Shown: in pieces, positions 25,449 to 29,890 of the stretch | Layout of the letters: each line of letters starts with the position of its first letter | How positions within the stretch are numbered: the stretch's first letter is position 1 | Assembly (NCBI GenBank): GCA_018660685.1 | Contig: JABJJW010000024.1 | Span: 62,001 to 126,000, forward strand | Source of the DNA: Flavobacteriales bacterium | Lineage (GTDB): Bacteria; Bacteroidota; Bacteroidia; Flavobacteriales_G; Salibacteraceae | Reading direction: 5' to 3' | Length of the DNA stretch: 64,000 bases | Translations under genes and position numbers: made by a program | Notes under the pieces: generated by a model | Told to the model about the DNA's origin: nothing | Seen by the model: only the letters and a program-made list of their open reading frames with translations | Database searches by the model: none

Positions 25449-26396
25449 ATGCTCAAGTATTTAATTCAAAAATCAGAGATCGGTGCCGGCACAAGGGGCA
25501 GTAGCCTTGGCCCCATGGCTATTAGACTTGCAGCCGCTGCGGATGAAAATCCTCTTTTTAGAAACCAATCTGTGGAAGAAATTCCAAATGAAAATTCAGC
25601 CTTGTTTGAAGTCGATTCTACGCCTCATGCGAAGCGAATCGATCAAGTAGTGAAGGTTTATCAGCAACATTCCGATGTCATCTATCGGAATATGGACATG
25701 GGCAATACCCTTGTTATCCTTTCTGCGGATCATGCTTCGGCAGGAGCCACAATTGCCGGAATTCGAATGGCTCATCCAGAGAAAAGGCTTGGTGTGATTT
25801 GGATTGACGCCCATGCCGATTTGCATTCTCCTTTCACTACACCATCAGGAAATGTACACGGAATGCCACTGGCAATCAGCCTTGCAAAAGATAACTTGGC
25901 CATGCAGCGAAATAACCCTTCTGAACAATGCTGTGAGAGCTGGGAAGAGCTCAAGAACACTGGTGGTATTTCCCCAAAATTGAATCCGACCGACCTTGTT
26001 TTTATTGGTGTAAGAGATGCTGAGCGTGAGGAAGCCTACATAATGAATGAGGACAGAATTGTCAATCATAAGGTGTCAGACGTGCGAGCTGCAGGGGCAG
26101 TAGAAACTGCCCATAAGTCGTTGGAATATCTCAGCGAATGTGACTTGATCTATGTTTCTTTTGATGTGGATAGCATGGACCCATCCATGGTTTCACATGG
26201 GACAGGTACCCCAGTAAAAGATGGTTTAAGTGCCAAAGAAGCCGAATTGATCTTGACCACTCTATTAAAGGACGAGCGAGCGAATTGTGTTGAATTTGTG
26301 GAGGTGAATCCTCTCTTGGATGAAAAGAAAAACTACATGGCAGAAACAGCTTTATTGCTTGTTGAAGCTTCGGTAAACGTATTAGAGAATAAGTAG
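25449..26396 (+). CDS. Arginase/ureohydrolase family protein
   Basis: Binuclear-manganese ureohydrolase, 315 aa, probably arginase (arginine to ornithine and urea). Metal-binding motifs are ILSADHASAGATIAG (about 90-104, the place of GGDHS), VIWIDAHADLHSP (about 117-129) and VSFDVDSMDPSMVSHGTGTPV (about 235-255). SGNVHGMPLA (about 134-143) matches the arginase loop that contacts the substrate carboxylate, which favours arginase over agmatinase. Its stop is directly followed by the argS ATG with no spacing, so they are cotranscribed; both deal with arginine supply. Confidence 0.87.
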   Translation: MLKYLIQKSEIGAGTRGSSLGPMAIRLAAAADENPLFRNQSVEEIPNENSALFEVDSTPHAKRIDQVVKVYQQHSDVIYRNMDMGNTLVILSADHASAGATIAGIRMAHPEKRLGVIWIDAHADLHSPFTTPSGNVHGMPLAISLAKDNLAMQRNNPSEQCCESWEELKNTGGISPKLNPTDLVFIGVRDAEREEAYIMNEDRIVNHKVSDVRAAGAVETAHKSLEYLSECDLIYVSFDVDSMDPSMVSHGTGTPVKDGLSAKEAELILTTLLKDERANCVEFVEVNPLLDEKKNYMAETALLLVEASVNVLENK

Positions 26397-28169
26397 ATGA
26401 TCAGAGCGAAGATTGCTGAAGCTGTTGCGGCTTTTTTAAAGAAGGAGTTTGAACAAGACGTCGATTCGTCCACAGTCCAAATTGAAGTTACCCGAAAAGA
26501 GTTTGAAGGGGATTACACCCTCGTCGTGTTTCCTTTTGTGCGCATGATGAAATGCAAGCCCGAACAAGCTGCTGAAAGCCTGGGCGATTATCTACAAGAT
26601 GAGCTGGCAGACATAGTTGGTTTCGGAGTTATCAAGGGTTTTCTCAACCTCAATTTATCTGCTGAATACTGGACGAATCAACTCGAGGCTACGATCACAG
26701 ATACACAATGGACCTCTAAACGAGTTGGCGACGAATTAATGCTCGTTGAGTTCAGTTCACCCAACACCAATAAACCGTTACACCTGGGACATCTAAGAAA
26801 TATATTCTTGGGACACAGCGTCAGTCTTATCAATGAGTTTGAAGGCAAAAATGTCGTGAAAACGCAAATTATCAATGACCGAGGTGTTCACATATGCAAG
26901 AGCATGTTCGCCTGGAAAATGCACGGAAAGGGAGAAACCCCGAAATCAGTAGGGATGAAAGGAGACAAGTATGTGGGAAAGTACTATGTCATGTATGATG
27001 ACCATCTCAAGAAACAAGTAGAAGCATTAGTTAATAAAGGCCTCGAGGAGGATCAGGCCAAAAAGGAAGCAATGCTGACCAAAAAAGTCCAAGAGATGCT
27101 AATCGACTGGGAGAATGGGGATGAAGAAACCCGAGAACTCTGGAAAATGATGAATGGCTGGGTTTACGAGGGCTTTGATGAAACCTACGAACGGATGGGC
27201 GTTTCGTTTGATTATCTATACTACGAATCTGACACGTATCTAAAAGGGAAGTCCATCGTTGAAAAAGGCCTAGATCAAGGCTTATTCATTCAAAAAGACG
27301 ATGGTTCAATTTGGGTGGATCTAAAACAGGAAGGACTCGATCAAAAACTTTTGGTTCGGGCAGACGGAACCACGGTTTACATGACTCAAGATATTGGTAC
27401 TGCAGCCCAGCGCTACGAAGACTATCCTAATTTGGAGCGAATCGTTTACACGGTTGGGGACGAGCAGGATTATCATTTCCAAGTATTATTCCTAACGCTA
27501 CATAAACTTGGGTTTTCTTGGGCAGAAGCCTGCCGACACCTAAGTTATGGGATGGTTGATCTGCCGACCGGTAAAATGAAATCTCGCGAGGGTAAAGTCG
27601 TTGACGCCGACGATTTAATGGAAGAAGTTGTTAATGCGGCAAAATCATCTTCTCTTGAAAAAGGAAAGTTGAATGATATGGATGAAGCCCAACAGGCCGA
27701 ACTTTTCGAAATCTTGGGAATCGGGGCTTTGAAATTTTTCCTTTTGCGGGTTGACCCGCGAAAGCGAATGCTGTTCAACCCTGAAGAATCCGTGGCGCTA
27801 ACAGGCGATACGGGTCCCTTTGTGCAATACACGTATGCTCGTTGTCGAGCAGTATTGAGAAAAGGGGGAACCGAAGACATAGTTGGCACCTCACTCAGTG
27901 AAATTTCGGACAAGGAACGCCATCTCATGAGAGAGCTTAGAAACTTCCGTCAGGTTACAAAAGAGGCAGCCGAGAGCATGAATCCGTCTGCGATTGCTTC
28001 CTATGTTTTGGACATCGCCAAGCTATACAATCAATTTTATCACGATATTCACATTCTAAATGCAGAAGGGGATGAACGTAAATTCAGGTTAGGATTAACC
28101 AGTCTTACTGCTCAGACCATTAAAACTTCTATGTCTTTACTCGGAATACGAGTACCCGAAAGAATGTAA
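26397..28169 (+). CDS. argS: Arginyl-tRNA synthetase
   Basis: Class I aminoacyl-tRNA synthetase charging tRNA-Arg, 590 aa, the normal length. The N-terminal additional domain covers about residues 1-105. The HIGH-type motif is SPNTNKPLHLGHLRNIFLG (about 119-137). The adenylation core includes YTVGDEQDYHFQVLFLTL and the KMSK-equivalent GKMKSREGKVVDADDLM. The DALR-type anticodon-binding domain with PFVQYTYARCRAVL ends the protein. It begins directly at the arginase stop and overlaps the M1-like gene by one base (TAATG). Confidence 0.96.
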   Translation: MIRAKIAEAVAAFLKKEFEQDVDSSTVQIEVTRKEFEGDYTLVVFPFVRMMKCKPEQAAESLGDYLQDELADIVGFGVIKGFLNLNLSAEYWTNQLEATITDTQWTSKRVGDELMLVEFSSPNTNKPLHLGHLRNIFLGHSVSLINEFEGKNVVKTQIINDRGVHICKSMFAWKMHGKGETPKSVGMKGDKYVGKYYVMYDDHLKKQVEALVNKGLEEDQAKKEAMLTKKVQEMLIDWENGDEETRELWKMMNGWVYEGFDETYERMGVSFDYLYYESDTYLKGKSIVEKGLDQGLFIQKDDGSIWVDLKQEGLDQKLLVRADGTTVYMTQDIGTAAQRYEDYPNLERIVYTVGDEQDYHFQVLFLTLHKLGFSWAEACRHLSYGMVDLPTGKMKSREGKVVDADDLMEEVVNAAKSSSLEKGKLNDMDEAQQAELFEILGIGALKFFLLRVDPRKRMLFNPEESVALTGDTGPFVQYTYARCRAVLRKGGTEDIVGTSLSEISDKERHLMRELRNFRQVTKEAAESMNPSAIASYVLDIAKLYNQFYHDIHILNAEGDERKFRLGLTSLTAQTIKTSMSLLGIRVPERM

Positions 28170-29890
28170 TGTTGCTATACAGGACTTTCTTGATCGGATG
28201 CGTAATGACCCTGGGCTTCCAACATACTCTTGACGCTCAAATCAATATGTTTTGGGAGACTCCAGAGAATGAAATGGAGTACCGAAAGTTTACTCGGAAT
28301 GATTCCTTAAGAGGTGGCTATCACGATCTGCGTTCCAACAACGATGTCACCCATTACAAGCTTGATTTAACGATAAACCCTGCATCAAAATCCTTAAGTG
28401 GAAATGTGAAGGTTTATTTCCGCGCTTTGAAAATCATACATCAATTACAACTGGATCTGTATGATAATCTTAAAATTGAGTCCGTCCGGACACCGGGACG
28501 CGATGTTACGCTTAAGAGGGAACAACATAGACTCATATTGAATTTCGAACCAAGAATCAAAATTGGTGAACGAATCGAAGTTGAAATTCAGTATAAAGGA
28601 AAGCCCATCGTGGATGAGAACCCGCCTATGAATGGTGGTTTTATATGGCAAGATGATACACTAGGGAAGCCATTCGTCGGTGTGAGCTGTGGTCGGAAAG
28701 GGGCAAGTCTCTGGTGGCCTGTAAAAGATCATCTCTATGATGAACCCGACAGCGTAAGCATGACGGTGAGAATTCCACCGGACCTTAAATGCATCAGTAA
28801 TGGTAAGCTCAGGAATCATTACATCGACGACAACAATAAGCAGGTCTACGAATGGGCTCATTCATATCCTATCAACCCATATAATGTTACTCTCTATGTC
28901 GGTGACTATGTGCATATCGAGGATGCCTACCTGAGCAAATCAGGAAACTCTATTGACCTTCACTACTATGTCCGACCGGAAAACCAGGAAGCGGCGAGCA
29001 AACTCTTTAACGCTCAAGTAAAAAAGATTCTTGGGATCTTCGAAAGTCGATTTGGTCCTTACCCTTGGCCAAAGGATGGATTTAAGCTTGTCGAAAGTCC
29101 TTATGAAGGAGTAGAACACCAAACAGCAATTGCCTTTGGAGATAAATTCAACAGACAATCCTCGACTTCATTTGATGAAGTTCTGGTGAGGGCAACAGCC
29201 CATGAATGGTGGGGAAACAGCGTTACCGCTAAAGACTTCGGTGACATCTGGATTCATGAAGGGTTTGCTACCTATGCTGAGGCTTTGGTTGATGAGCAAA
29301 TTGCAGGCTATGAGTCCTATTTAAATTTTCTTTATCGAAAAGCATTTCTAATTACGAATTGGCAGCCCGTTATCGGTCCTTCCGAAGTGAAAAGCTGGGA
29401 CAGTACCCAACCCGACCCACAGGCTAAAGGCGCTCTCTTTTTGCACACTCTTCGCATGAAGATTGGCGACGATAGGCTCTTTTTCGATATTCTTTCTTCA
29501 TTTTATAAAAAGCATGCCCACGGTCATGCCACCACCCATGACTTTTTGGAAATGGTGACCAATAAGACCCGAGAACCGTACACACTACTCTTTCAGCAGT
29601 ATCTGTATCAACGAAAGCCTCCGGTTCTAGAATTTCAAGTCGTTAGAGGAATTGAAGGAGAAGAGAGCTATATGCTCTATCGCTATTCTGAAATCGTGGA
29701 TAAGCTTGAACTACCCTTGAAATTTAAGATAGGTGGCACGACCGTTCCGATAAACCCTCGACCGGAAGTTCAAAAAGTCATCATTCCAGACAATGGTAAA
29801 ATTATTAGAAATTCTACTGTTTGTTATGTCTCCTGCGTCCCTTCCGATAATTTACTCCAGCTTTTTGAAGAGCAGGGGAATAAGGAGTAA
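28169..29890 (+). CDS. M1 metallopeptidase homologue lacking catalytic residues (predicted pseudoenzyme)
   Basis: M1 aminopeptidase-fold protein, 573 aa, with a signal peptide (residues 1-24). The N-terminal beta-saddle has HYKLDLTINPASKSLSGNV (about 63-81), and the substrate-side motif is SPYEGVEHQTAIAFGDKF (about 310-327), the place of GxMEN. At the zinc site the expected HEXXH reads RATAH (341-345): first zinc-ligand His and catalytic Glu are Arg and Ala. The second His (345) and the downstream Glu (364, WIHEGFATYAEAL) remain. The conserved Tyr before KGA (YxKG) is Gln 418. So peptidase activity is unlikely. It is translationally coupled to argS. Confidence 0.85.
   Translation: MLLYRTFLIGCVMTLGFQHTLDAQINMFWETPENEMEYRKFTRNDSLRGGYHDLRSNNDVTHYKLDLTINPASKSLSGNVKVYFRALKIIHQLQLDLYDNLKIESVRTPGRDVTLKREQHRLILNFEPRIKIGERIEVEIQYKGKPIVDENPPMNGGFIWQDDTLGKPFVGVSCGRKGASLWWPVKDHLYDEPDSVSMTVRIPPDLKCISNGKLRNHYIDDNNKQVYEWAHSYPINPYNVTLYVGDYVHIEDAYLSKSGNSIDLHYYVRPENQEAASKLFNAQVKKILGIFESRFGPYPWPKDGFKLVESPYEGVEHQTAIAFGDKFNRQSSTSFDEVLVRATAHEWWGNSVTAKDFGDIWIHEGFATYAEALVDEQIAGYESYLNFLYRKAFLITNWQPVIGPSEVKSWDSTQPDPQAKGALFLHTLRMKIGDDRLFFDILSSFYKKHAHGHATTHDFLEMVTNKTREPYTLLFQQYLYQRKPPVLEFQVVRGIEGEESYMLYRYSEIVDKLELPLKFKIGGTTVPINPRPEVQKVIIPDNGKIIRNSTVCYVSCVPSDNLLQLFEEQGNKE

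Follow-up and report, generated by a model that had tools for sequence, protein, structure and literature searches.

A probable M1-fold pseudopeptidase, apparently exported, encoded between argS and ffh in a Flavobacteriales bacterium

The gene immediately downstream of argS in the stretch of Flavobacteriales DNA analysed here (64,000 nucleotides, hereafter the window) encodes a homologue of M1 aminopeptidases in which, as read from the alignment with its relatives, a zinc ligand has been lost along with the general base, the transition-state tyrosine and an amine anchor (Table 1). The product is probably a secreted pseudopeptidase of the M1 fold, incapable of normal zinc binding or hydrolysis and retained as a binding protein. 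Among the explanations that can be put forward, a retained pseudoenzyme is the best-supported reading, and its main rival is early gene decay. Pseudopeptidases are known in other peptidase families, bacterial ones of the M1 family have hardly been described, and our literature search on bacterial M1 pseudoenzymes found nothing specific. This case is a further example of a known phenomenon, and by itself it leaves the larger picture unchanged. If the protein is indeed a maintained binding protein, a secreted M1 scaffold would be reusable without catalysis, and annotation pipelines will wrongly label the product an aminopeptidase.

Table 1. Coordinates, within the window, of the candidate pseudopeptidase gene and of the residues discussed in the text
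Feature	Position	Strand	Basis or remark
Overlap of argS stop and M1 start, TAATG	28167..28171	+	one-base overlap
Candidate M1-fold pseudopeptidase gene	28169..29890	+	single ORF, 573 aa
Putative N-terminal signal peptide, MLLYRTFLIGCVMTLGFQHTLDA, followed by Q	28169..28237	+	read from sequence
Asp149 (family Ala, 114/119)	28613..28615	+	alignment
Met154 (family Trp, 118/119)	28628..28630	+	alignment; the other exception is L136 (Tyr)
Gly175 (Glu or Gln in the family)	28691..28693	+	alignment; profile alignment to 7z28 and 7zyf
GVEHQTAIAFG, GxMEN equivalent, G314-G324	29108..29140	+	alignment
RATAH in place of HExxH, residues 341-345	29189..29203	+	direct reading, alignment
Glu364, third zinc ligand, retained	29258..29260	+	18 residues between His345 and Glu364
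Gln418 at the transition-state Tyr (YxKG)	29420..29422	+	followed by A-K-G; Lys420 kept

The protein matches the profiles of both domains expected of an M1 homologue, the N-terminal one (Pfam PF17900, Peptidase_M1_N; 34.8 bits against a cut-off of 25.8) and the catalytic one (PF01433, Peptidase_M1; 56.1 bits against 27.7), and a sequence comparison with solved structures gave the Deinococcus M1 metallopeptidase and further M1 enzymes as its nearest relatives. An AlphaFold model computed from an alignment of 59 relatives was confident over the full length (mean pLDDT 92, pTM 0.90) and, when compared with solved M1 proteins, aligned over 410-499 residues with Z scores of 38-41, so that the predicted fold is that of the family. 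The first 23 residues contain a basic residue, a hydrophobic stretch and an Ala before Gln, residues 2-19 are modelled as a helix with low confidence, and the sister protein L156 has a lipoprotein-type signal; the protein therefore appears to be exported, to the periplasm or the cell surface. In length, domain order, fold and export signal it resembles the secreted M1 peptidases of Bacteroidota (the HETAHEWWGN subfamily), but whereas the zinc-binding His and the catalytic Glu are present in 119 of the 119 subfamily members compared, here both are gone.

An active M1 enzyme would be expected to possess an HExxH(18)E zinc site with its general base, the transition-state Tyr and a second Glu or Gln holding the substrate amine, and the window protein departs from each of these (R341 and A342, Q418, and G175, respectively). 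We aligned it with 119 distinct relatives. The first zinc ligand is replaced by Arg341 and the general base by Ala342, with His345 kept, and since all 119 relatives have His341 and Glu342, the claim of the initial annotation that these two residues have been replaced is borne out. Its direct reading of RATAH, of the spacing to Glu364 and of Gln418 also proved exact to the coordinate, while its "catalytic triad" is a loose term for a set that comprises a single zinc ligand along with the general base and the transition-state Tyr. Tyr418 is found in 118 of the 119 relatives (the sole other exception, L136/L032, has Asn) and Met315 in 117. The segment equivalent to GxMEN, which has the form GxMEH in this subfamily and GVEHQ in the window protein, had been described as kept; this holds for Glu316, His317 and Gln318, but not for Met315, now Val, or Tyr323, now Phe. 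Departures not recorded earlier are G175, D149, M154 and F323. Glu183 of ERAP1, the equivalent of position 175, is one of two residues that anchor the amino terminus of the substrate. Column 175 is occupied by Glu in 83 relatives, by Gln in 36 and by Gly in the window protein, and in profile alignment to 7z28 and 7zyf it falls on the Glu of the QFEP motif in ERAP1 and IRAP. The combination that defines a pseudoenzyme, catalytic residues lost and fold kept, is found here, the fold being a predicted one.

The initial annotation had itself named a genuine HExxH elsewhere in the protein as a finding that would speak against it. No such motif, nor HxxEH or a similar zinc motif, occurs anywhere in the 573 residues, and a shifted or alternative zinc site was rejected on these grounds. 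A hidden HExxH, or an error of sequencing, assembly or frame, can be given almost no weight as an explanation: the genome is indeed a draft in 28 contigs, yet several codons were replaced independently, one of them at all three bases, within an uninterrupted frame, and an artefact was rejected on the number of these independent changes.

Such a loss is exceptional among the sequences compared. A class-wide motif scan of 395 genomes returned 100 places in 99 genomes, and His-Glu was coded everywhere except in the window gene. In a phylum-wide scan covering the Glu position (395 genomes) there were 73 places, and the Glu was missing in the window gene and in two others; the latter, HEWWGN matches without the Glu in G263 and G474, are dienelactone-hydrolase-like by sequence and were rejected as M1 proteins. 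A relative that seemed also to be without HE (L022) was set aside as well, the apparent loss being an alignment gap. Within the order, nine of 42 genomes carry a close homologue, of which only the window copy is altered. The gene is absent from 12 of the 12 congeners searched, and the nearest relative (L040/L156, from Flavobacteriales UBA6057), 46% identical, has an intact active site. The pseudoenzyme proposed in the initial annotation is upheld insofar as catalysis appears lost in a preserved full-length protein and retention is the best reading, but the check it suggested, for a group of orthologues sharing R/A/Q, turned up none in the genus (13 genomes), the family (35), the order (42) or 80 named-genome relatives. 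The altered gene is known from a single genome, although, as the genomes compared represent about half of GTDB species, unsampled carriers may exist. Six further M1-family genes in the window genome each have an intact HExxH(18)E, indicating that M1 peptidase capacity has not been lost from the organism.

One should also consider that the gene has entered early decay, i.e. that catalysis was lost, constraint was relaxed and the frame is still open only because little time has passed, a scenario that we regard as rather unlikely. It would fit the occurrence in one genome only and the absence from all congeners examined, by which the gene is evidently dispensable in the genus, as well as the faster evolution of the window branch: its terminal branch carries 1.08 changes per site against 0.51 for the sister (ratio 2.1), and relative-rate tests rejected equal rates with 8/8 outgroups (p 0.008 to 3e-6). 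Faster yet constrained evolution fits a change of function, and it also fits early relaxation. However, the seven changed codons require at least 12 nucleotide substitutions (three in the His341 codon alone, from CAC or CAT to AGG), yet neither a stop nor a frameshift is present across the 573 codons; under simulated neutral change only 2.5% of copies were stop-free at 0.05 changes per site, and 0.25% at 0.1. Codon use, GC3 and GC by codon position match those of neighbouring genes, and 43 of the 50 family-invariant residues (columns conserved in at least 95%) were kept while the active site was cleared. The seven departures are A149D, W154M, M315V, Y323F, H341R, E342A and Y418Q, and four of them lie on ten active-site positions (Fisher p = 0.02, indicative only, since the ten positions were listed after the departures had been seen). 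At 80%-conserved columns the protein departs at 12%, no more often than relatives with an intact site do (L046, for example, has an equal rate). Judged by its sequence, the gene is not visibly decaying.

In a retained pseudoenzyme of this kind the catalytic zinc would no longer be bound normally and peptide hydrolysis would be lost. Arg341 probably fills the vacated zinc position and pairs with Glu364 and/or Glu316, a structural suggestion made because these acids would otherwise be uncompensated. The old substrate cleft, with Glu316, His317 and Gln318, would most likely bind a peptide or protein partner without cutting it; alternatively, it could serve to sequester peptides or a partner peptidase. 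The joint replacement of several pocket residues might, on the other hand, mark a new pocket, in an altered but still catalytic protein whose cleft carries out another kind of hydrolysis and has no canonical zinc site. The change of the same three columns in a second lineage (L032/L136, see below) would agree with this, as would the precedent of leukotriene A4 hydrolase, in which the M1 fold hosts a second reaction. That second reaction, however, relies on the same zinc site, and the window protein sequence contains no alternative metal motif; we consider such a protein very improbable.

For the non-catalytic binding protein that we favour, the second lineage may offer a parallel. L032, a protein of the Flavobacteriales isolate DT_38 (positions 1320-2936 of that locus), is identical to L136 in genome G071 (positions 598-2214), and is possibly an independent, partly disabled M1 peptidase. 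It keeps HETAH and Glu175, and carries W154Y, M315I and Y418N; the sister protein L137 is intact. At the 50 invariant columns L032 departs three times, each time at one of the seven positions changed in the window protein (hypergeometric p = 0.0018, with no correction for the 15 rows inspected), and since intact proteins separate the two lineages on the tree, the partial remodelling of the same positions looks independent. It is possible, and we offer it tentatively, that an M1 protein was recast in the window lineage as a non-catalytic receptor or peptide binder, and that positions 154, 315 and 418 were remodelled in parallel in the second lineage, which keeps its zinc site. If true, this would reveal a stepwise route from an M1 peptidase to a binding protein, and the partly changed L032/L136 makes the order of residue losses testable.

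Several known systems can be compared with the window protein. TAF2 of TFIID has an M1-like domain in which the zinc site is not functional and which serves for structure or binding, but TAF2 is a eukaryotic nuclear transcription factor subunit that is not closely related. By analogy, the nearest functional counterpart is the yeast protein Tma108, which binds nascent chains via its substrate pocket and for which cleavage is unproven; a review that covers pseudometallopeptidases gives it as its sole M1 case (PMC11266112). Both are M1 proteins for which polypeptide binding by the substrate pocket is proposed; Tma108, however, keeps HExxH(18)E and has lost only one substrate-binding residue, and it is cytosolic and eukaryotic. 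The best structural match is the two-domain M1 metallopeptidase of Deinococcus radiodurans (PDB 6a8z; Z 40.8, 410 residues), of which a mutant, E323A (PDB 6iff), has Glu replaced by Ala just as at position 342 of the window protein. HExxH is present in the wild-type enzyme, whereas in the window protein more of the site is gone, and its C-terminal part is longer. Outside the family, bacterial pseudo-orthocaspases are peptidase homologues in which catalytic residues are replaced and the fold is kept (PMC6426788), showing by analogy that inactive homologues of peptidases are indeed maintained in bacteria; these have the caspase fold and are conserved in many species, in contrast to the single genome of the present case.

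The initial annotation had also considered the gene to be coupled to argS. In the window, ffh starts 75 bases past the M1 gene. In five congeners (L142-L145 and L149), ffh lies about 70-130 bases downstream of argS and no M1 gene intervenes; in four others neither ffh nor any M1 remnant was found just downstream of argS, and none of the congeners had an M1 remnant downstream of argS at E 1e-3. The M1-free junction in congeners suggests that the gene entered this lineage between argS and ffh, or survived there only. The sister gene, in G015, lies away from argS, ffh and the other neighbours tested. Since the argS product is cytosolic and the window protein apparently secreted, the link gives no functional clue, and with an arrangement unique to the window genome, differing compartments and a sister gene located elsewhere, the supposed coupling reduces to position; the adjacency allows co-expression at most.

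Three observations concern argS itself. Directly upstream of it lies an arginase/agmatinase-like gene (window 25449-26396), and this pair, unlike the M1 gene, is conserved in nine congeners. In two congeners the argS gene (L149 in G007, 1242-1513; L150 in G008, about 1402-1504) aligns in two pieces, around residues 211-238, and the G007 copy has about 270 extra bases in open frame, apparently a lineage-specific insertion in the arginyl-tRNA synthetase. L151 (G011:C22:2066-3754) is a second argS, 52% identical, in a genome with 4% contamination, and is either a duplicate or a contaminant.
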